This document shows positions 25,160 to 35,641 of a stretch of DNA of 39,745 bases, in pieces (positions within the stretch are counted from its first letter, which is position 1; each line of letters starts with the position of its first letter). Location: contig NZ_VSMC01000027.1 in NCBI RefSeq assembly GCF_008728965.1, positions 1-39,745 on the forward strand. The letters are read 5' to 3'. Source of the stretch: Heminiphilus faecis. GTDB lineage: Bacteria; Bacteroidota; Bacteroidia; Bacteroidales; Muribaculaceae. The notes below the pieces were generated by a model. It was not told the origin of the DNA and did no database searches. It saw only the letters and a list, made by a program, of their open reading frames with translations. Position numbers and translations under genes: made by a program.

Positions 25160-27058
25160 TCACACATCCAAGTAAAATTTGTGACGTTGCTCTTCTGTCA
25201 ACTCAAATTCGCCTAACGCCCGCCGGGCATCGTCTATAAGCTCCCTGAGAGTTTTTTTGAGAGGGAAGTATATGCGCCCGACGGTATGTGATTTTGATGA
25301 GAAATAAATGTATTCATCCTTTGTAACCAAGGTATCGATATTCTGGTATTTGTTCATTGCCTGTTTATCAGCGGATGTATCTGACAATAAGTCATGAATC
25401 TCAAGCCCTTGTGTGGTCGCGACAATTAAATAACAATCGTTATGCATGAATGTGATTGCTTTAATTGGCCATTCTGAATCGATTCTTGTTATCACTTGGT
25501 CTAAAGTCGAATCGTATATGACTGTGGATTTAGAACTTAATGCTATGGCTATGCGACATCCGTTACGGGAATAAGCTACACATACCACTCTTTCCGGTTT
25601 AAAGTTGCGGGTGTATAATATTCGCTCGGATACGGCGTCAATGACATGAAATGTCCCTGAATTGCCTCCTACTGCAATATTGTTGTCTATCGGACTGAAA
25701 TCAAAGCATTTGATGCCTCCTTTTATCCCGTTTATCGTCCTTAACCTTTTCCCGTTTACGGGATTAAACAATTCTATCTTTTTATCATCGGATATTGCCA
25801 ATAGTCTGTCATCAAATGAATACCGGATAGTCAAATCGGGTATTGTCGCGGGCTTGGAGAGTCCGCCGATATTCATGTCCTCATCATAAAATGAATAACG
25901 TATATTATTGTCTTTGACAGTGTGGCAATTAAATGTTTTGGTTATTTCACCCGTGGCGGAGTCCCAAGTGGTGACATGGCGGTTTCCGTTGGTGTCGCGG
26001 TCAATCAATACTCCTGTCAATATGCCTGATATGTTGCTGAATGCAATAGCTGCTATACGGCTATTGCTTGTCGGGAGTACAAGCTTCTTATCGGTATCAT
26101 AGTTATAAGTTGCCGGATGCCCGTGTTGTGTGATTGCGGCTATTATGCTTTCAAAAGGATGCATGGATATATCTGTGCCGTGTATGTCGAAAGTCTCCGA
26201 TTGGAAATCCGCCATATTGCTCTTTATTTCCTGAATATGGACTGAATTATCGTGCGAAGCTGTAACTACGATGCTGTCGTCTTTCCCAAACTCGACATCG
26301 TTAATGGCGTCGGTATGGACTTCAAATATCTTTTCTGTCCTTCCTGTCGCGGCATTTACGATTCTCATGACTCCATAACTCTCGCCTAAGGCTATCAGTG
26401 TGCCGTCTTTACTGAATGAGCCGCAACGTATACATACTTCCGATATATCTTCGGCCCATATTATCTCATTTGTCTCAAGATTGAATAATCTTACCGTTCC
26501 ACTGTTTGATGTAATGAGAATATGCTTGCCGTCAGGGCTAAAACGCGATGAAGTAAGCGCTTCATCCTTAAAATTCAGTAGATTGATTAACGACATTGAA
26601 CTGCTGTCCCATATTTTTACATGCCCGTCACCGGAGGAAGATACGATGAAACGGTCATCGCAGCTGATGTCGACAGATTTTATGCTTCTGATTTTATGGG
26701 CGTCTACTTTCGACAGAAGCTCTGAAGTAGTAAAATCGTATTTGTATATAAGGCCGTTGGCCGAGGCTACGATTAAGATACTCATATCATGACTTAAGAC
26801 GGCATCGTATATAGGACCGGGCTGGTTCTTGAAACGCTTTAATTCCACGCCGTTGGCGTCAAATACTATGACATGGCCTTTATAAGTTGATACAACAATC
26901 ATTGACGCATCAGATGAAAGGCGTATTGAATTTATCCTGCTCATCTTTTCAACAGAGTGCAGCACTTTTCCGTCGGACAGCCCCCACCATTTGATACAGC
27001 GGTTGTCACCTCCTATAATAATACGGTCATTTGCTGAATCGATGGCGATAGCGCGCAT
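25160..27058 (-). CDS. WD40-repeat protein, in frame with the upstream TIR gene
   Basis: A 632-residue protein made almost entirely of WD40-like repeats, enough for two seven-bladed propellers, followed by a short charged tail (FELTEEQRHKFYLD). Repeats are recognisable by phrases such as SSSGDGHVKIWDSSS, SNSGTVRLFNLET and SFSKDGTLIALGESYG. There is no signal peptide or transmembrane segment. It begins in mid-pattern: the first ATG lies five codons after a TGA in the same frame as the TIR gene, and homologous bacterial proteins commonly carry TIR, a helical linker and WD40 on one chain. The WD40 part would be the sensor or scaffold. It is more A+T-rich than the arg and ilv operons around it. 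Translation may reinitiate or read through. Confidence 0.8.
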   Translation of the reverse strand: MRAIAIDSANDRIIIGGDNRCIKWWGLSDGKVLHSVEKMSRINSIRLSSDASMIVVSTYKGHVIVFDANGVELKRFKNQPGPIYDAVLSHDMSILIVASANGLIYKYDFTTSELLSKVDAHKIRSIKSVDISCDDRFIVSSSGDGHVKIWDSSSMSLINLLNFKDEALTSSRFSPDGKHILITSNSGTVRLFNLETNEIIWAEDISEVCIRCGSFSKDGTLIALGESYGVMRIVNAATGRTEKIFEVHTDAINDVEFGKDDSIVVTASHDNSVHIQEIKSNMADFQSETFDIHGTDISMHPFESIIAAITQHGHPATYNYDTDKKLVLPTSNSRIAAIAFSNISGILTGVLIDRDTNGNRHVTTWDSATGEITKTFNCHTVKDNNIRYSFYDEDMNIGGLSKPATIPDLTIRYSFDDRLLAISDDKKIELFNPVNGKRLRTINGIKGGIKCFDFSPIDNNIAVGGNSGTFHVIDAVSERILYTRNFKPERVVCVAYSRNGCRIAIALSSKSTVIYDSTLDQVITRIDSEWPIKAITFMHNDCYLIVATTQGLEIHDLLSDTSADKQAMNKYQNIDTLVTKDEYIYFSSKSHTVGRIYFPLKKTLRELIDDARRALGEFELTEEQRHKFYLDV

Positions 27059-27070
27059 AGGACCATTCTC

Positions 27071-27838
27071 TCAGAACGTGTTGCTCATTGTCGACATGGC
27101 TTTTCTCAAAGCATTGTCAGCCTCTTTAACCAGTGGGCGGTCAGGATTGTCAATGTCAGAGGGCAAGGCTTTCAATGCCAGCAGACGTGCGACTGAAAGA
27201 TTTCCCGCTGATAATTCTGCCGTCGATTTTTCAGACAGAAACATGCTTTGGAGTCGAAGTAGTTTATTCCGCTCATCTATCAGGCGTTGTCGTTCTACTT
27301 CCTTGTCTCTTTCATATCGTTGCCACAACGTGTCAAATTTTAAGCTGAGCATAAAGGCTATGGCTTTTATTGATGCCACCTCACGGCCCATCTCTGACAC
27401 ATTTATACCCAAAATCTCATCCGATGTATTTCTCAACTCTCTCAACGCAGGGGCAAAACATTCTTCTTCAGGGTTTTGTGCATAAGGTGTGCCTGATATT
27501 ATCAATGGTATGACACTGGTCCTTCCGTTCAGGCTAAGAAAACGTCTGATTTCTTTATCAACCCATTTGGATTTTGCTGACGATGGAGAACATAATACGA
27601 TAAGGAAGTGGGATGACATGAGTGCCTTGTCGATTTCGTCACTTAGGATTCCACCTGACAGTTCGGTCTTGTCAAGAAATATTTTACGCCGGCAATCATT
27701 AAGCTCCGGCTGGGCTTCCAGTACATTTATGGGTATTCGGTAATGTTCAAGCTGATGTTGAAGCCATTCGGCGAAGTTTTCATCATCTCGTTGATAACTT
27801 ATAAATGCAAGATATTCCTTGATATTTCCGGGTACCAT
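27071..27838 (-). CDS. TIR-domain protein, N-terminal part of a TIR-WD40 system
   Basis: A 255-residue protein. Residues 8-135 form a TIR domain: EYLAFISYQRDDENFAEWL, IFLDKTELSGGILSDEI, FLIVLCSPSSAKSKWVDKEI and TSVIPLII. E96 in WVDKE aligns with the catalytic Glu of NADase TIR domains. Residues 145-250 are a helical linker ending in SVARLLALKALP and ALRKA, a segment that in related proteins leads straight into WD40 repeats. Here a TGA stop follows SNTF. The ATG at 27838 is chosen because the upstream TTG lies inside the -7 box. A role in defence or signalling through NAD breakdown is plausible but inferred. Confidence 0.85.
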   Translation of the reverse strand: MVPGNIKEYLAFISYQRDDENFAEWLQHQLEHYRIPINVLEAQPELNDCRRKIFLDKTELSGGILSDEIDKALMSSHFLIVLCSPSSAKSKWVDKEIRRFLSLNGRTSVIPLIISGTPYAQNPEEECFAPALRELRNTSDEILGINVSEMGREVASIKAIAFMLSLKFDTLWQRYERDKEVERQRLIDERNKLLRLQSMFLSEKSTAELSAGNLSVARLLALKALPSDIDNPDRPLVKEADNALRKAMSTMSNTF

Positions 27839-27862
27839 ATGCGATAATTTTTGGCTGATATG

Positions 27863-27870
27863 CAAATGTA
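27863..27870 (-). promoter_or_regulatory. -7 promoter element of the TIR-WD40 pair
   Basis: TACATTTG on the minus strand matches TAnnTTTG, 24 bases before the ATG at 27838. No convincing -33. Confidence 0.55.
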
Positions 27871-28194: not shown

Positions 28195-29238
28195 TCAGTT
28201 GTTTTCGGGACGGAGTTTGCGTACGGTGACGGCAGTCTGCCACATTTCGCTCTCGCGGAGGGCTTTGAGTTCCTCTTCGAGCTTTTCGCGATAATCGGGC
28301 TTGGAGTTGCTGTCAATCGATATCTGGGCTTCGTTGCCGGTCTTTACGCTCTCGTAAAGTTTTTCTACCACAGGCTTGACAGCATCGTGGAACGGGCCCA
28401 TCCAGTCAAGGGCGCCGCGCTGTGCGGTGGTCGAGCAGTTGGCATACATCCAGTCCATGCCGTTTTTGGCAAAAAGCGGCATAAGCGACTGTGTAAGTTC
28501 CTCTACCGTTTCGTTGAAGGCTTCGGAAGGAGTGTGACCGTTTTCGCGGAGCACTTCATACTGGGCAAGGAGAAGACCCTGTATGGCGCCCATCAGCGAG
28601 CCGCGCTCTCCTGTAAGGTCGGATGTGGCTTCACGCTTGAATGTGGTTTCGAACAGATATCCCGAACCGATGCCGATGCCGAGTGCTATTGTGCGATCGA
28701 ATGCACGGCCGGTGTAGTCCTGCTCTACGGCGTAGGATGAGTTTAGACCGCGGCCTTCGAGGAACATGGTGCGCAGTGAGGTACCCGAACCCTTGGGCGC
28801 AACAAGAATAAGGTCGATGTCTTTGGGGGGAACAACACCTGTGCGGTCGCTCCAAGTGATGGCGAAGCCGTGAGAAAAGTAGAGAGCCTTACCGGGTGTA
28901 AGATACTCCTTGATAGTGGGCCATACCGACATGACGGCTGCGTCAGAAAGAAGACACATGATGATTGTGCCGCGCTTGCACGCCTCTTCGATGCCGAAGA
29001 GAGTCTCGCCCGGTACCCATCCGTCGGCCACGGCCTTTTCATAGGTCTTGCCGGGACGCTGGCCCACGATGACATTGAAGCCGTTGTCGCGCAGGTTCAT
29101 GCTCTGGCCCGGACCCTGAACACCGTAGCCGATCACTGCTATTGTCTCGTCTTTGAGTATCTCTCTCGCCTTTTCCAAAGGAAACTCTTCGCGGATGATG
29201 ACATTCTCCTCAACTCCGCCAAAATTCAATTTTGCCAT
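28195..29238 (-). CDS. ilvC: Ketol-acid reductoisomerase
   Basis: A 347-residue NADPH/Mg-dependent enzyme of valine, leucine and isoleucine synthesis, converting acetolactate or acetohydroxybutyrate to the dihydroxy acids. Seen: the nucleotide-binding IAVIGYGVQGPGQSMNLRD, the LILVAPKGSG segment, and in the knotted C-terminal domain DLTGERGSLMGAIQG and the acidic metal ligands around EAFNETVEELTQ. The GYGVQGPGQ variant replaces the usual GYGSQGHAQ, as is common in Bacteroidales. It is the last gene of the operon, followed by a strong terminator. Confidence 0.94.
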   Translation of the reverse strand: MAKLNFGGVEENVIIREEFPLEKAREILKDETIAVIGYGVQGPGQSMNLRDNGFNVIVGQRPGKTYEKAVADGWVPGETLFGIEEACKRGTIIMCLLSDAAVMSVWPTIKEYLTPGKALYFSHGFAITWSDRTGVVPPKDIDLILVAPKGSGTSLRTMFLEGRGLNSSYAVEQDYTGRAFDRTIALGIGIGSGYLFETTFKREATSDLTGERGSLMGAIQGLLLAQYEVLRENGHTPSEAFNETVEELTQSLMPLFAKNGMDWMYANCSTTAQRGALDWMGPFHDAVKPVVEKLYESVKTGNEAQISIDSNSKPDYREKLEEELKALRESEMWQTAVTVRKLRPENN

Positions 29239-29257
29239 AAGAATTAAATGTTAGATG

Positions 29258-30019
29258 TTATAGTTGTTTATATTCATAATCGGTAAATGCCATGCGTGCG
29301 CGGCTCACCGCTTCGCCGTCGATCGTTATCTCGGCGCTGTAGTTGTCGTCGCCGTCATCGCGGATCAGCAGCATGGCCTCCTGCGCGCACTTCGCTTCGT
29401 GCATGAACGCTATGTCGAACCGGCTCACGCGGTGGCTGTCATAGAAGTCCATGTCCCAGCGGTTTTGGATCAGCTCGATATACCGAAGTGTGTTGACATG
29501 CCGGTTGAAATCGCAGTCGCAGTATCTGAACCGGTAGCGGCTTTCGTAGTCGGCTGTGTCGCCCACGGGCGAGAAACGCCTTGTCTTTTCCATGGGACAC
29601 GGGCGGTCGCACACGGTGTCGCGCAGCGCGTCGAGCATGGACAGGTCGCCTCCCTGACGCTCTTTGATGTCGATAGCCATCCATATGGACCGGGCGTGGC
29701 CCAGCACTTCGTCGTCGAGGCCCGTAATCTCGAAGTTGCGCTCCGAGAAGTGGCGGTTGAAGCCTTCGATCCATGTGCGCAGTGTGTACTCTTCGCTAAC
29801 CGAGGGCCATCGTCGCATTTCGATTGACAGGCGCGAGAGCACCCATGCTTTGCCGTCGGCGAGCAGCCGGGCGTAACCTATTCCGAGGTCGTTGGCGTGA
29901 TAGGTCGCGGTCTCGATTACGCGTCCGGCAAGCAGTGTCAGCGGCATGATGGCCTGCGGGCTGCACTCCGGAGCGGTGAGAGTATAGTGTTTTATGTACT
30001 CCTTTATAGGGCCGGACAT
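29258..30019 (-). CDS. Acyl-ACP thioesterase (FatA/FatB-like)
   Basis: A 253-residue double-hotdog thioesterase that releases fatty acids from acyl carrier protein. The N-terminal hotdog shows GIGYARLLADGKAWVLSRLSIEMRRWP and TWIEGFNRHFSERNFEI; the second shows RYCDCDFNRHVNTLRYIELI with the catalytic D-x-N-x-H-x-N-like motif (DFNRHVN), followed by FDIAFMHEAKC. It overlaps the end of ilvN by 16 bases and precedes ilvC by 19 bases, so it is fully inside the branched-chain amino acid operon. Branched-chain keto acids made here also prime branched fatty acids, which may explain the pairing. Confidence 0.88.
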   Translation of the reverse strand: MSGPIKEYIKHYTLTAPECSPQAIMPLTLLAGRVIETATYHANDLGIGYARLLADGKAWVLSRLSIEMRRWPSVSEEYTLRTWIEGFNRHFSERNFEITGLDDEVLGHARSIWMAIDIKERQGGDLSMLDALRDTVCDRPCPMEKTRRFSPVGDTADYESRYRFRYCDCDFNRHVNTLRYIELIQNRWDMDFYDSHRVSRFDIAFMHEAKCAQEAMLLIRDDGDDNYSAEITIDGEAVSRARMAFTDYEYKQL

Positions 30020-30558
30020 TGGTGCGATTTGCGACGCTCCTGCTCGTCAAGATACATGTTGAGATATTCGTGAGTGTCCTTGGTGACGGCTACGCGTCCC
30101 GACCGCACAAACTGTCGTATGTCGTATTTGCGCAACTCTTCGAAAAGGGCTTCTGTCTCGTCGGAGTGGCCGGTTTTTTCAAGTACTACATACTCACGGG
30201 TTATTTCGAGTATACGTGCATTATGACGTCTTATTATAAGCTCCACGTTCTTATCGTCGAGCAGTTGCGGTGTAGGCACTTTGTATAACGCCACTTCCTG
30301 ATATACTATCTCGTCGTCGGTGTACAGAAATGACTTGAGCACGTCTATGCGCTTCTCGATCTGCTTGACCACTCGCTCCATCATTGGGCGGTTGCTGAAG
30401 CAGGTTATGGTGAACTTGTGTATGCCTTTGATCGATGAGGGACTCACCGACAGGCTCTCTATATTGAGACAGCGGCGGGTGAAAATGATGGATATCTGAT
30501 TGAGCAGACCCACTTGGTTTTCGGAAAATACCGTCACTGTAAATAATTGCTCGTCCAT
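30004..30558 (-). CDS. ilvN: Acetolactate synthase small (regulatory) subunit
   Basis: A 184-residue ACT-domain protein (LFTVTVFSENQVGLLNQISIIFTRRCLNIESLSVSPS) with a second regulatory half. It activates the catalytic subunit and confers feedback inhibition by valine or other branched-chain amino acids. It lies 31 bases after ilvB and its 3' end overlaps the thioesterase gene. Confidence 0.9.
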   Translation of the reverse strand: MDEQLFTVTVFSENQVGLLNQISIIFTRRCLNIESLSVSPSSIKGIHKFTITCFSNRPMMERVVKQIEKRIDVLKSFLYTDDEIVYQEVALYKVPTPQLLDDKNVELIIRRHNARILEITREYVVLEKTGHSDETEALFEELRKYDIRQFVRSGRVAVTKDTHEYLNMYLDEQERRKSHQCPAL

Positions 30559-30589
30559 ATTCAGTTGTGTTGTCAGCTTGTTTTTGCGG

Positions 30590-32308
30590 TTAGTCGATAG
30601 GATAAGTCTCGGTGGCGTTTAGCATGATGTTGTTGACATCTGCACCTGCCGGAGTCATCGGGAATACCATATCGGTTTCGTCGATATTGACATTTATAAG
30701 ATATGCTCCGTCATGATCCAGCATGCGCCGTATGGCTCCGTCAAGCTGCTCGCGGGTCTCGACATTCTCGGCTCCGATACCATAGGCTTCGGCTATCATG
30801 ACGAAATCGGGGTTTATAAGCGGAGTCTGAGAGAAGCGGTCGTTAAAGAACAGCGACTGCCACTGACGCACGTTGCCGAGGAAGTTGTTGTTAAGCAGTA
30901 TTATCTTTATGTCGGTGTTGTACTCAAGTATTGTGCCGAGCTCCTGTATTGTCATCTGCAGGCCTCCGTCGCCGGTAAAGAAACATACCGTGCGGTCGGG
31001 AGCTCCCATTTTGGCCCCTATCGAAGCGGGCAGTCCGAAACCCATTGTGCCGAGACCTCCGGAGGTTATGATGGACCGGGGTTCGGAGTATCGCGAGTAA
31101 CGGGCGGCAAACATCTGGTTCTGACCGACATCGGTAACTACAACGGCTTTGTGGCCTGTGGCTTCCGACACTTTGTTTACCACTTCGCCCATGGTCATCG
31201 GTCCTGACTCTGGATATACTTCGCGTTTTATCACTTTCTCATATTCGACCTGTGCCGGTATGTCAAATTCGGCAAGCCACTCGGTGTGCTTGCGTGGTTC
31301 TATCATAGGCAGCAGCATGCGCAGCACCTCTCCTGCGTCGCCGTGTACGGTGGCGGCCGTGGCTATGTTTTTGTCAAATTCCGACTCGTCGATGTCGATG
31401 TGTATGATTTTGGCCTCCGGCGCGTAAGTCTTTACATTGCCGGTGACACGGTCGTCAAATCGCATGCCTATGGCAATCAACAAGTCGGCTTTGTTCGTGT
31501 TTACGTTCGGGCCTATGTTGCCGTGCATGCCGAGCATGCCTTTGTAGAGAGGATGTTCCGACGGCATGGTTGACAGGCCGAGCAATGTCGCTGCCACCGG
31601 TATGTCGCCCTTTTCGGCCATGGCGGCAAGATCGGCCTCGGCCTGCGATATCATCACTCCGTGTCCTGACAGTATCATTGGGCGTTCGGCAGCGTTAATC
31701 ATATCGGCCACGCGCCGCAGGTCATCGTCGTTTATTTCAGGCCGAGGAGTATAGGAACGTATGAAGTCACATTTCTTATAATCGTCAAACTCCACCATGC
31801 CTGTCTGCGCGTCCTTGGTGAAGTCGAGCACCACCGGACCGGGACGTCCTGTGGATGCGATGTAGAACGCACGTGCCACGGCCCAAGCTATATCCTGCGG
31901 ACGTCTTATCTGATAGCTCCATTTTGATAACGGCTGGGTTATGCCTACGACGTCGGTTTCCTGAAACGCGTCAAAGCCGAGAAACGGAGTGGCTACCTGT
32001 CCTGTTATGACTACCATCGGGGTACTGTCCATAAGAGCGTCGCCTATGCCAGTTATTACATTGGTGGCGGCGGGTCCGGAAGTTACTATCACCACTCCCG
32101 GGCGGCCGGTGACGCGCGCGTATCCTTGTGCGGCATGTGTGGCTCCCTGTTCGTGACGTACCAACACGTGTTTCAGGCTGTCCTGATAGTCGTACAGCTT
32201 GTCGTATACCGGTATTATGGATCCTCCCGGATAACCGAATACGAGGTCGACTCCCTCGCATATGAGGGAGCGGATCAAAGCGTCGGCACCTGATATCATT
32301 TCTTTCAT
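30590..32308 (-). CDS. ilvB: Acetolactate synthase large (catalytic) subunit
   Basis: A 572-residue ThDP/FAD enzyme that condenses two pyruvates, or pyruvate and 2-ketobutyrate. The N-terminal domain has YPGGSIIPVYDKLY and the catalytic Glu in VRHEQGATHAAQGYAR; the ThDP-binding motif GDGGLQMTIQELGTILEYNT and LLNNNFLGNVRQWQ are in the C-terminal domain. The usual GPGATN is GPAATN here. It is placed between ilvD (33 bases upstream) and ilvN. Confidence 0.94.
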   Translation of the reverse strand: MKEMISGADALIRSLICEGVDLVFGYPGGSIIPVYDKLYDYQDSLKHVLVRHEQGATHAAQGYARVTGRPGVVIVTSGPAATNVITGIGDALMDSTPMVVITGQVATPFLGFDAFQETDVVGITQPLSKWSYQIRRPQDIAWAVARAFYIASTGRPGPVVLDFTKDAQTGMVEFDDYKKCDFIRSYTPRPEINDDDLRRVADMINAAERPMILSGHGVMISQAEADLAAMAEKGDIPVAATLLGLSTMPSEHPLYKGMLGMHGNIGPNVNTNKADLLIAIGMRFDDRVTGNVKTYAPEAKIIHIDIDESEFDKNIATAATVHGDAGEVLRMLLPMIEPRKHTEWLAEFDIPAQVEYEKVIKREVYPESGPMTMGEVVNKVSEATGHKAVVVTDVGQNQMFAARYSRYSEPRSIITSGGLGTMGFGLPASIGAKMGAPDRTVCFFTGDGGLQMTIQELGTILEYNTDIKIILLNNNFLGNVRQWQSLFFNDRFSQTPLINPDFVMIAEAYGIGAENVETREQLDGAIRRMLDHDGAYLINVNIDETDMVFPMTPAGADVNNIMLNATETYPID

Positions 32309-32341: not shown

Positions 32342-34168
32342 TTACAATTCTCTTACTCCTCCCTTGTCGGCCGACGTTACCATAGCCGCGTAAGCCTTCA
32401 ATGCTTTCGAGACTTCTCTGTCGCGTCCTGCCGGAGTGAAGGCGTCTTTGCCTCGTGCCTCCTCGGCAAGCCTTCGAGATGCAAGCTCTTCATCGGATAG
32501 AAGCACATTTATGGTGCGTGAGGGTATGTTTATGTCTATTATGTCGCCGTCGCGGACAAGTCCTATGGCTCCGCCCGCGGCCGCTTCAGGTGATATGTGT
32601 CCGATGGACAGCCCCGAAGTACCGCCGGAGAAGCGTCCGTCGGTTATGAGCGCACACTCTTTACCGAGATGTTTTGATTTTATGTAGCTTGTAGGGTAGA
32701 GCATCTCCTGCATGCCGGGACCTCCCTTGGGACCTTCATGTGTTATGACCACTACGTCGCCGCTTACTACTTTGTCGCGCAGTATGCCGTCAACGGCTTC
32801 TTCCTGTGAGCGGAATACCTTTGCCGGGCCGCGGAAGTGAAATATGCTTTCATCTACGCCGGCTGTTTTTACAACGCATCCGTCGACCGCGATATTGCCG
32901 CGCAACACCGCAAGTCCGCCGTCTTTGACATAGGCGTGTTCGAAGTCTCTTATACAGCCTCTGGTACGGTCGGTATCGAGCTCTTTGTATGTGGCCGATT
33001 GAGAACCGAGTTTAAGATTGCGGCCTCCTCCGGGAGCGCTGAGCCACAGCTGCGACGCCTCGTCAGTGAAGTTGCGGCCTTCGATGGCATAGGTCTCTAT
33101 GGCTTCTCCGAGAGTCATTCCGTCGACTCGTTTTACCGATGTGTCCACGAGTCCTTTGTCGGCAAGCTGCTTCATTATTGACAATATGCCTCCTGCACGG
33201 TTTACATCCTGTATGTGGTATGACGAGTTGGGCGCTACCTTGCAGAGCACGGGGGTAACTCTTGACAGTGCGTCAATGTCGGCCATGGTGAAGTTTACGC
33301 CTGCCTCATTTGCCACAGCAAGCAGGTGCAGTACTGTGTTGGTCGATCCTCCCATGGCTATGTCGAGGGCCATGGCGTTCATCATGGCTTCTCTTGTAGC
33401 TATGCTTTTAGGCAATACGCTTTCGTCACCGTCATTATAGTAGGCGTAGGTGTTTTTCACTATGCGTTTTGCCGCGTCGCTAAATAGTTTTTCTCTGTTT
33501 GCATGAGTGGCGAGTATGGTGCCGTTGCCCGGCAGGGCGAGTCCTATGGCTTCGTTGAGCGAGTTCATTGAATTGGCCGTGAACATACCCGAACACGAGC
33601 CGCAGGTAGGGCATCCTTTGCGTTCAAGCAGTGTTACGGTGTCATCGCTTACCGATGTATCGGCCGCGTCAATCATTATGTCGATCAAATCCAATGCGCG
33701 TCCGTCAAGTTCGCCGGCTTCCATGGGACCTCCTGAAACGAATATTGCAGGTATGTTGAGCCTCATTGCAGCCAGAAGCATCCCCGGAGTGACTTTGTCG
33801 CAGTTTGATATGCATACCATTGCGTCGGCTTTGTGGGCGTTGACCATATACTCGACAGAGTCGGCTATGAGGTCACGTGACGGCAGGGAATAAAGCATGC
33901 CGTCATGGCCCATGGCTATGCCGTCGTCAATAGCTATTGTGTTGAACTCGGCTGCGAAGCATCCGAGACGTTCTATCTCTTCCTTTACTTTCTGTCCTAT
34001 CTCGTGGAGGTGGGTATGCCCCGGTACAAATTGGGTGAATGAATTTACGATGGCTATGATAGGCTTGCCTATCTGCTCGTCTTTCATTCCGTTGGCTCGC
34101 CATAATGCGCGGGCACCTGCCATGCGGCGTCCTTGTGTCGATGCTGCGCTTCTAAGTTGTCTGCCCAT
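32342..34168 (-). CDS. ilvD: Dihydroxy-acid dehydratase
   Basis: A 608-residue iron-sulfur enzyme that makes the 2-keto acid precursors of valine and isoleucine. Family signatures are [19 protein letters not shown] and [17 protein letters not shown], which hold the cluster Cys residues, with [20 protein letters not shown] near the C-terminus. It is the first structural gene of the operon, preceded by a 97-base gap to the stop of the leader peptide; the gap contains the attenuator terminator. Confidence 0.95.
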
Positions 34169-34197: not shown

Positions 34198-34241
34198 TTA
34201 ATTAAAATGCCTCTCTGTCCGCTTGTGCGGTGGAGAGGCAT
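34198..34241 (-). terminator. Attenuator terminator in the ilv leader
   Basis: ATGCCTCTC (minus strand) pairs exactly with GAGAGGCAT across 34207-34241; an inner stem CCGC/GCGG extends the hairpin. It is followed by TTTTAATT on the minus strand, 23 bases after the leader peptide stop and before ilvD. It is placed to stop transcription unless an alternative pairing forms. Confidence 0.88.
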
Positions 34242-34288
34242 CAATTTATGCTGTTATTTGCCGGTCACATACAACCGATTGCCCCTCC
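34232..34288 (-). promoter_or_regulatory. Antiterminator pairing region of the ilv attenuator
   Basis: On the minus strand GGAGGGGCA (34280-34288), inside the last codons of the leader ORF, can pair with TGCCTCTCC (34232-34240) over nine positions with one G-U. The second segment is the 5' arm of the terminator, so the two structures exclude each other. A ribosome stalled at the Ile/Val/Leu run leaves the antiterminator free; one that reaches the stop codon would cover it. Confidence 0.75.
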
Positions 34289-34360
34289 TGTGCATTTTAG
34301 GATGGTAATGACGACCGATAGTAGGACGACAATCGATAATATGCAACCTGTAGTTGTCAT
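34265..34360 (-). CDS. ilv leader peptide
   Basis: A 31-codon ORF starting at 34360 and ending in TGA at 34265-34267. Its translation opens MTTTGC and then contains the run ILSIVVLLSVVITIL: of 15 residues, 12 are Ile, Leu or Val. Such a run directly upstream of a terminator and of ilvD is the mark of a ribosome-mediated attenuation leader (compare ilvL of enteric bacteria). The ATG lies 30 bases after the -7 promoter element. The peptide itself probably has no function beyond pacing the ribosome. Confidence 0.88.
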   Translation of the reverse strand: MTTTGCILSIVVLLSVVITILKCTGGAIGCM

Positions 34361-34389
34361 CGTGTTTTGTTAAATGCAAGTTAGCGATG

Positions 34390-34421
34390 CAAATTTATGA
34401 CACTTTGCAATAAAAAACAAA
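34390..34421 (-). promoter_or_regulatory. Promoter of the ilv operon
   Basis: TAAATTTG (34390-34397) as -7 and TTTG (34418-34421) as -33, with a 20-base spacer, both exact matches on the minus strand. The leader ATG follows 30 bases downstream. Confidence 0.85.
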
Positions 34422-34508: not shown

Positions 34509-35420
34509 TTACAGGCCGAAAGTCAGTGAGGTAAAGTAACGTACCTGCCCTCCGAGCGAGTATTGCGGATTGTACTGCAGTGTTATGTAGCCGCGGTTGG
34601 GTGCAAACCAAGTGGCTGATAGCGATGCTCCGCTGTTTGAGTAGTTGACAGGAGAGCCATAAGTGCCTGTAAAGGAATTGTACAAGGAGTTGTAGCGCAT
34701 CATGTCGGGATAGGAGGTCGAGTACAGAAACTCTGAGCGTGCCAGCCCGCCGTTGCCGTAATACAATGTGGCGTCGGGCCAATAGTAATTGAACTGGTTG
34801 ATGTCGCGCAGGTATACTACGTTGTTGCCATAGCCGTCGACCGTATATCCGTGGTTGATAAGATAGTCGAGCGACAGGTTAAGAGCTGTTCCGAAAGTGA
34901 TGCCGAGAATGGCGGCAAATGACGGAGCATGCGGACGAGGACGCCATGACGGAGGAGGTACCGGTCGGCTCCACCTGCTCGGACGCGGACGGTGAGGACG
35001 CATAGGCGGATGCATCATCGGCGGCCGGGCATGACCCGGAGGCAGGTGGCCTATGCCCGGTCTTGGCGGACGTGGTTGTTGGGGGCGTCCGTAGTGCCAG
35101 TTGTTGTTGGGTCTGTTTTGTGTAGGACGGTTGTGCGGACGGTCCTGAGGCCTGTTGTGGCTGCCGTTGTTGCCGGGACGTTGAGGGCGGTTCTGCGGTT
35201 TGTTCTCAGGTCTGTTGTGGCTGCCGTTGTTGCCGGGACGTTGAGGGCGGTTCTGCGGTTTGTTCTGCGGACGATTGCCGGGGCGATTCTCGGGCCGGTT
35301 GGTTTGTTGTGACGAATGATTGCCTCGATTGCCGGTCGTGCGGTTTTGAGCGTCAACCGGAGGAACAATCAGTGCAAGGCTTACAAATGCGATAGCCAAG
35401 AGGTGTAATATCCGTTTCAT
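34509..35420 (-). CDS. Secreted low-complexity Pro/Asn/Arg-rich protein, function unknown
   Basis: A 303-residue protein; the ATG at 35420 (MKRILHLL) is chosen over a TTG three codons upstream. Residues 1-24 are a signal peptide ending near VDAQ. Residues 25-165 are extremely rich in Asn, Arg, Pro, Gly and His, with units like NRPQNKPQNRPQRPGNNGSH repeated, then a PRPP/HPPMRPHRPRP stretch. Residues 170-303 are a compact, Tyr-rich, probably beta-structured domain (DYLINHGYTVDGYGNNVVYL, TLYYGNGG, GYITLQYNPQY). The basic, disordered half could bind the outer membrane, LPS or polysaccharide. No family was recognised. Confidence 0.7.
   Translation of the reverse strand: MKRILHLLAIAFVSLALIVPPVDAQNRTTGNRGNHSSQQTNRPENRPGNRPQNKPQNRPQRPGNNGSHNRPENKPQNRPQRPGNNGSHNRPQDRPHNRPTQNRPNNNWHYGRPQQPRPPRPGIGHLPPGHARPPMMHPPMRPHRPRPSRWSRPVPPPSWRPRPHAPSFAAILGITFGTALNLSLDYLINHGYTVDGYGNNVVYLRDINQFNYYWPDATLYYGNGGLARSEFLYSTSYPDMMRYNSLYNSFTGTYGSPVNYSNSGASLSATWFAPNRGYITLQYNPQYSLGGQVRYFTSLTFGL
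35152..35266. repeat. Tandem 60-bp repeat within the low-complexity gene
   Basis: Positions 35152-35206 and 35212-35266 are identical over 55 bases, a 60-base (20-codon) period. The identity at DNA level indicates a recent duplication, so length may vary between strains. Confidence 0.85.
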
Positions 35421-35641
35421 AAAAATCAACTTTTATAAGTTTAGATGCCGGCGCCGTAAGAAAGTTTAATATCGTACGGCGACATATCTGAATTGTATAA
35501 CAACTTTATATCTGTAATTGTGCAATATATGTGAATAATGATATATAAGTGAGGATATCCGTAATATTATACGCTTTTTCCGGCAACTTAATCATGCAAA
35601 ATCGAGAGTAGCAATGGTTTTTAGTCTTTGGATAGTTTTTT

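Follow-up and report, generated by a model that had tools for sequence, protein, structure and literature searches.

The branched-chain amino acid genes of Heminiphilus faecis raise the question of how transcription into the first of them, ilvD, is controlled, and whether a complete ribosome-mediated attenuator with a small leader peptide stands in front of it, as the original prediction for this DNA proposed. We addressed this by a base-by-base reading of the region, by folding and shuffling controls, and by comparison with ilvD loci of relatives. The outcome is that the ilvD leader is very likely a classic ribosome-mediated transcription attenuator, and that similar elements stand before many ilvD genes of the Bacteroidota.

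Organization of the ilvD locus

The window, meaning the whole stretch of 39,745 nucleotides that was analysed (contig NZ_VSMC01000027.1), carries ilvD on the minus strand at 32342..34168, where it encodes dihydroxy-acid dehydratase (NCBIfam NF009103, 1037.5 bits) and is the first gene of a presumed operon. The part of the operon that follows it (28195..32308) is presumed to comprise, on the same strand, ilvB (30590-32308), ilvN (30004-30558), an acyl-ACP thioesterase gene (29258-30019) lying between ilvN and ilvC, and ilvC itself (28195-29238). The thioesterase gene perhaps ties branched-chain amino acids to branched fatty acids. Downstream of the ilv genes and on their strand, a TIR-domain protein (27071-27865) adjoins a WD40-repeat protein (25160-27058).

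Reading the minus strand base by base from 34421 to 34168 gives, in the 5' to 3' direction, a promoter, a leader open reading frame, an antiterminator arm, a terminator hairpin and ilvD, and the coordinates given by the original prediction proved exact. The promoter that it placed upstream of the leader is a primary promoter of the sigma-ABfr type: the sequence TTTG-N20-TAAATTTG at 34421-34390 (minus strand) matches the Bacteroides consensus exactly, as given in a passage of PMC7366714. Sites of this TTTG type with spacers of 18-21 occur six times in the window against 0.38 expected from shuffles. A simple promoter and terminator scan of the minus strand did not call this promoter, whose type is outside the scan.

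A leader peptide rich in isoleucine, leucine and valine

The leader ORF spans 34360-34265 on the minus strand, with 31 codons and a TGA stop, and its translation is MTTTGCILSIVVLLSVVITILKCTGGAIGCM. The predicted core of 12 Ile, Leu or Val residues in 15 is present at codons 7-21, which read ILSIVVLLSVVITIL, and the regulatory codons are ATT GTC GTC CTA CTA TCG GTC GTC ATT ACC ATC CTA. The region holds a short predicted leader ORF whose codon run specifies the end products of the pathway, and an Ile/Leu/Val-rich ORF is conserved in relatives. An ORF with at least eight such residues in ten arose in 5 of 2000 dinucleotide shuffles of the 339-nt gap. There is no Shine-Dalgarno-like core before the leader ATG in the window, and such a core is present in 6 of 62 ilvD leaders. 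These 62 derive from 68 triads, after removal of the doubtful loci L030, L126, L128, L148, L166 and L169 from the swap, codon and geometry counts.

A short ORF that arose by chance, followed by a hairpin that is just the ordinary terminator belonging to the upstream gene, would be in keeping with the orientation of that gene, an ORF at 34509-35429 that runs in the same direction as the ilvD leader. The consensus promoter, however, sits between the two ORFs, the shuffles just given and the control counts and conservation described below speak against an accident, and the conserved leaders of relatives already contradict it, so that this explanation is scarcely credible.

Among the 62 leaders, isoleucine, leucine and valine make up 47% of residues in frame as against 23% and 12% out of frame, a contrast that is inflated and partly circular because the leaders were selected on their content of these residues; both of the other frames contain many stops. 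A better sign of dual constraint on coding and RNA is to be found at the end of the core. In the window's near relatives GTC GTC ATT ACC is preserved as codons, whereas the GGAGGGG motif directly after it is preserved as RNA while its reading frame varies, the window reading it as GGA GGG, L003 as GAG GGG and L004 as AGG AGG GGC.

Competing RNA structures

Three pairings can be drawn in the leader RNA. The first two are mutually exclusive, as the original prediction had it. Segment 2, GGAGGGGCA, at 34280..34288 on the minus strand (codons 25-27 of the leader), is complementary to segment 3, TGCCTCTCC, at 34232..34240, through nine pairs including one G-U, with an antiterminator duplex in the window of -19.0. 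Pairing and folding both identify segment 3 as a shared arm, the 3' arm of the antiterminator and the 5' arm of a terminator hairpin formed by segments 3 and 4 (34206..34242, minus strand), and when the RNA is folded without the 3' arm of the terminator the antiterminator forms instead. The stretch 34198-34250 folds at -22.6 kcal/mol with a z of -7.07, and a T-tailed hairpin of equal strength was found in none of 60 dinucleotide shuffles of the 339-nt gap.

The third pairing is an element absent from the original prediction. A protector stem (1:2) joins segment 1, a 5' arm within the leader ORF (34330..34348, minus strand), to a 3' arm that spans the leader stop codon (34263..34281) and adjoins the antiterminator arm with an overlap of two bases; it is seen both in the minimum free energy fold and in the duplex energy. 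In the window this duplex reaches -32.2 kcal/mol, and none of 200 shuffles is as good. The best fold of the whole leader RNA consists of the protector stem and the terminator, with a z of -4.35, again with none of 200 shuffles as stable. When all 68 triads were used, the protector stem beat shuffles at p ≤0.05 in 24 loci (about 3 expected), and it is very strong in the window.

Such overall stability would also suit a ligand-binding riboswitch or a T-box accompanied by an incidental ORF. The T-box and riboswitch covariance models of Rfam had no match in the window. At the gathering score Rfam release 15 gave no family in the window and none in 16 loci, hits up to E 10 lying far below threshold and relaxed thresholds giving nothing usable; this release includes the leader families of amino acid operons. 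The parts that are conserved, moreover, are the arms and the in-frame Val/Ile/Leu codons, and the leader codons fit the pathway at three operons (see below), which makes a riboswitch or T-box highly improbable.

Co-variation of the arms

The covariation that the original prediction expected of both stems is clear for the terminator and weak for the antiterminator. On alignment A1, which holds 22 of the 29 family triads and in which the row of the window supplied the structure, 7 of the 10 pairs of the terminator main stem are changed on both sides and none of 500 shuffles reaches the covariation score. For the antiterminator, two-sided changes occur at 3 of 9 pairs, and 32 of 500 shuffles score at least as high.

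A swap test, run before the column covariation of the antiterminator, compares each arm with its own partner and with those of other loci, and used the 55 loci left of the 62 once repeats of the shared arm had been removed. In 46 of the 55 non-redundant loci the antiterminator arm pairs better with its own partner than it does, on average, with the swapped ones. Among the family loci themselves the own partner is better in 21 of 24, and outside the family in 22 of 31, which is not significant (p 0.066). The terminator arm prefers its own partner in 52 of 55, a result that is expected and partly circular because the hairpins were selected for their own folding. The locus has an antiterminator with an arm common to the terminator, although the column covariation of the former is weak.

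Strength of the terminator

A terminator hairpin lies between the leader and the first structural gene. The hairpin of the original prediction is borne out, at 34242-34206, and the T-rich run in which it was said to end proved to be a weak U-tract (GGCATTTTAATTAAT); the simple scan of the minus strand did not call this hairpin as a terminator. The median of the longest T run is 3 in 23 loci of g1, g6 and g11, the window's clade, as against 5 in 33 other loci. This weakness is the main doubt about the locus, and it leaves room for a low efficiency of termination or for an output other than termination.

One such output is that the leader acts on ilvD through translation, or through RNA processing or decay, with the hairpin remodelled by the ribosome and the polymerase not stopped. 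That the U-tract is weak in the window's clade, and that the simple terminator scan gave no match, is what this reading would lead one to expect. It fits less well with the position of the hairpin, which ends 37 nt upstream of the ilvD start and leaves that start uncovered, and with the clear T runs that follow many homologous hairpins elsewhere and the hairpins before hisG and leuA. We regard it as unlikely, and favor transcription attenuation.

Geometry and a model for attenuation

In the window, 12 nt separate the final isoleucine codon of the run (codon 20, at 34303-34301) from segment 2, and 9 nt separate the final leucine codon (codon 21) from it. The median gap between the last Val or Ile codon and segment 2 is 9 nt in the 29 family loci and 11 nt in the 33 others. 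A gap of 9-11 nt is about a ribosome's reach. The regulatory codons are therefore placed such that a ribosome stalled on them would free segment 2, and one that advances would cover it.

From this anatomy and geometry, together with the conservation and the co-variation of the arms, we infer translation of the leader, stalling, termination and a response to amino acids, as follows. Transcription would begin a short way downstream of the sigma-ABfr promoter, with a ribosome translating the leader ORF behind the RNA polymerase. With charged valine, isoleucine and leucine tRNAs at hand, the ribosome would advance towards the stop codon and cover segment 2 (34288-34280), segment 3 would then pair with segment 4, and the terminator would halt the polymerase ahead of ilvD. 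If valyl-, isoleucyl- or leucyl-tRNA were scarce, the ribosome would stall on the Val/Ile/Leu run and leave segment 2 free to pair with segment 3, so that no terminator would form and ilvD-ilvB-ilvN-thioesterase-ilvC would be transcribed. If the leader is not translated at all, the 1:2 protector stem would favor termination.

Distribution among relatives

The original prediction called for conservation of the ORF and of the stems in relatives, and both were found, in 12 of 13 loci of the window's own genus and in many other Bacteroidota, with the competing arm near the leader stop in these as well. The search of the window's family covered 297 genomes, 149 of them with ilvD, and upstream DNA was taken for 90 loci including the window (30 + 60); three lacked an orientation (L036, L050 and L079) and one had a short upstream region (L022), leaving 86 usable loci. 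By a looser common rule, a leader and a terminator precede ilvD in 32 of these 86. Two of the 32 look spurious, L066 with an antiterminator energy of -5.1 and L078 with one of -2.0. The 12 of 13 loci in the window's genus include the window itself; genus g6 has the arrangement in 10 of 11, and g5, g11, g18, g21, g23 and g28 together have it in 8 of 8.

Roughly two thirds of the family loci examined fail the rule. Six genera in which four or more loci were read (g3, g4, g7, g9, g14 and g15) yielded no convincing leader with a terminator, nor did eight genera represented by one or two loci (g8, g12, g13, g20, g24, g25, g26 and g30). The loci L027-L078, from g3, g4, g7, g9, g14, g15 and others, have ilvD without a convincing leader and terminator.

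A second, named set comprised 80 ilvD loci, of which six had too little upstream sequence and 74 remained; the divisions into Bacteroidota and other phyla, and into Prevotella-like and other genomes, were made by record titles. Under one rule a leader and a terminator stand before 34 of the 60 Bacteroidota-labelled loci, a count that includes the doubtful L126 and L169, and before none of the 14 loci from other phyla. The ilvD loci of Bacteroides graminisolvens (L095) and Phocaeicola faecalis (L102) carry the element. Of 15 Prevotella-like loci, 3 pass and 12 fail. Locus L128 has a leader rich in valine, MKNLVNIVISLVVVVVVCG, with its stop codon 285 nt upstream of ilvD, and a clear terminator was not found there.

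Among 223 starts of other genes at these loci, taken as controls, only one passes the leader and terminator rule, and since the gene concerned is 67% identical to leuA of the window's genome, this start is probably a true attenuator.

Leaders upstream of hisG and leuA

The genome that contains the window has sister leaders at two further operons. Upstream of hisG (L173, contig C14, hisG at 413) is a leader with a run of histidines, MMTSRLNQHHHHHFLQH, together with an antiterminator and a terminator, and upstream of leuA (L172, contig C67, leuA at 81653) is a Leu-rich leader, MNTTLLSLSLTSGLTLSK, followed by a terminator with seven T. Two aspartokinase genes of the same genome (L174 and L175) have no attenuator that could be seen upstream, and a search with a trpE model gave a weak partial match below the cut-off.

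Across the window's order, hisG and leuA were each read in 31 loci, namely the own genome and the best 30 of the 57 and of the 100 matching genomes, respectively. A His-rich leader precedes hisG in 25 of the 31 loci so chosen (best 30 of 57 plus the own genome), and in all 25 of them a T-tailed hairpin follows, with an antiterminator duplex of -9 kcal/mol or below in 19; of the 223 control gene starts, 3 satisfy the His rule. The Leu rule is met by 11 of the 31 leuA loci (best 30 of 100 plus the own genome), nine of them with a terminator. Since this rule is lax, 15 of the 223 control starts passing it too, the putative leuA leaders outside the window's genome are weak evidence, and two of them (L224 and L229) look false.

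That the codon run tracks the pathway, chiefly through hisG, is the strongest argument for the mechanism. The original prediction missed these similar switches at hisG and leuA, and likewise the apparent absence of the switch in many genera of the family.

Discussion

The enterobacterial ilvGMEDA, ilvBN and leu operons are controlled by attenuators with the leaders ilvL, ivbL and leuL. The ilvD leader resembles them in being rich in the end products, in having 1:2, 2:3 and 3:4 segments, and in placing a terminator before the first biosynthetic gene. It differs in that ilvD comes first and an acyl-ACP thioesterase gene lies inside the operon, and in having a Bacteroidota promoter, no Shine-Dalgarno-like core at the leader ATG and no Rfam match. 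The proposal that the logic of the enteric ilv, leu and trp attenuators operates here with a different gene order is supported by the anatomy, the conservation and the competition between arms.

A further comparison is with the attenuator of ilvBNC in Corynebacterium glutamicum, which, as described in PMC11857589, also serves a branched-chain operon and likewise works with terminator, antiterminator and anti-antiterminator hairpins; that system is actinobacterial and has been tested by mutation. Closer to the window, leader-peptide attenuation has been proposed before amino acid operons of Flavobacterium psychrophilum, which belongs to the same phylum and a different class, on the basis of 'strong clues' (PMC9723704); the passage concerned names neither operons nor leader sequences, and 'ilv' does not occur in the main text. 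Small ORFs in long 5' UTRs of Bacteroides thetaiotaomicron, probably of the same order as the window, have been described as reminiscent of attenuation leader peptides, with BT_4401 as an example, in a section of PMC7366714 whose main text has no mention of ilvD.

The kind of mechanism is old, and the ilvD switch is a real, widespread and new case of it, with priority subject to two attenuator surveys, of 2004 and 2010. The abstract of the 2004 survey, by Vitreschak and colleagues, reportedly mentions Bacteroidetes/Chlorobi. The relevant lines of Naville and Gautheret 2010 (PMC2965389) cite that survey for Proteobacteria, and the 2010 survey, by Lopatovskaya and colleagues, is cited in a passage of PMC4833913. 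Among the literature matches listed there was no paper on Bacteroidales ilvD, hisG or leuA leaders.

The wide distribution of the ilvD switch is its main interest. The presence of the same arrangement in so many relatives suggests that gut Bacteroidales very probably use a stalling-ribosome switch for branched-chain synthesis, and it is likely that across the Bacteroidales ribosome-mediated attenuation governs the synthesis of histidine, leucine and the branched-chain amino acids, at leader ORFs most of which have no Shine-Dalgarno-like core. If so, transcription and translation would be tightly coupled in a phylum whose initiation signals are unusual, and the switch would have been lost repeatedly, both among Prevotella-like genomes and in many of the genera that make up the window's family. 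Lineages that carry the switch can also be set against those that lack it. For a major group of gut bacteria, the locus provides a concrete and testable switch in the synthesis of branched-chain amino acids, and the leader genes indicated for three operons would make transcription-translation coupling in Bacteroidota testable by simple leader mutations.
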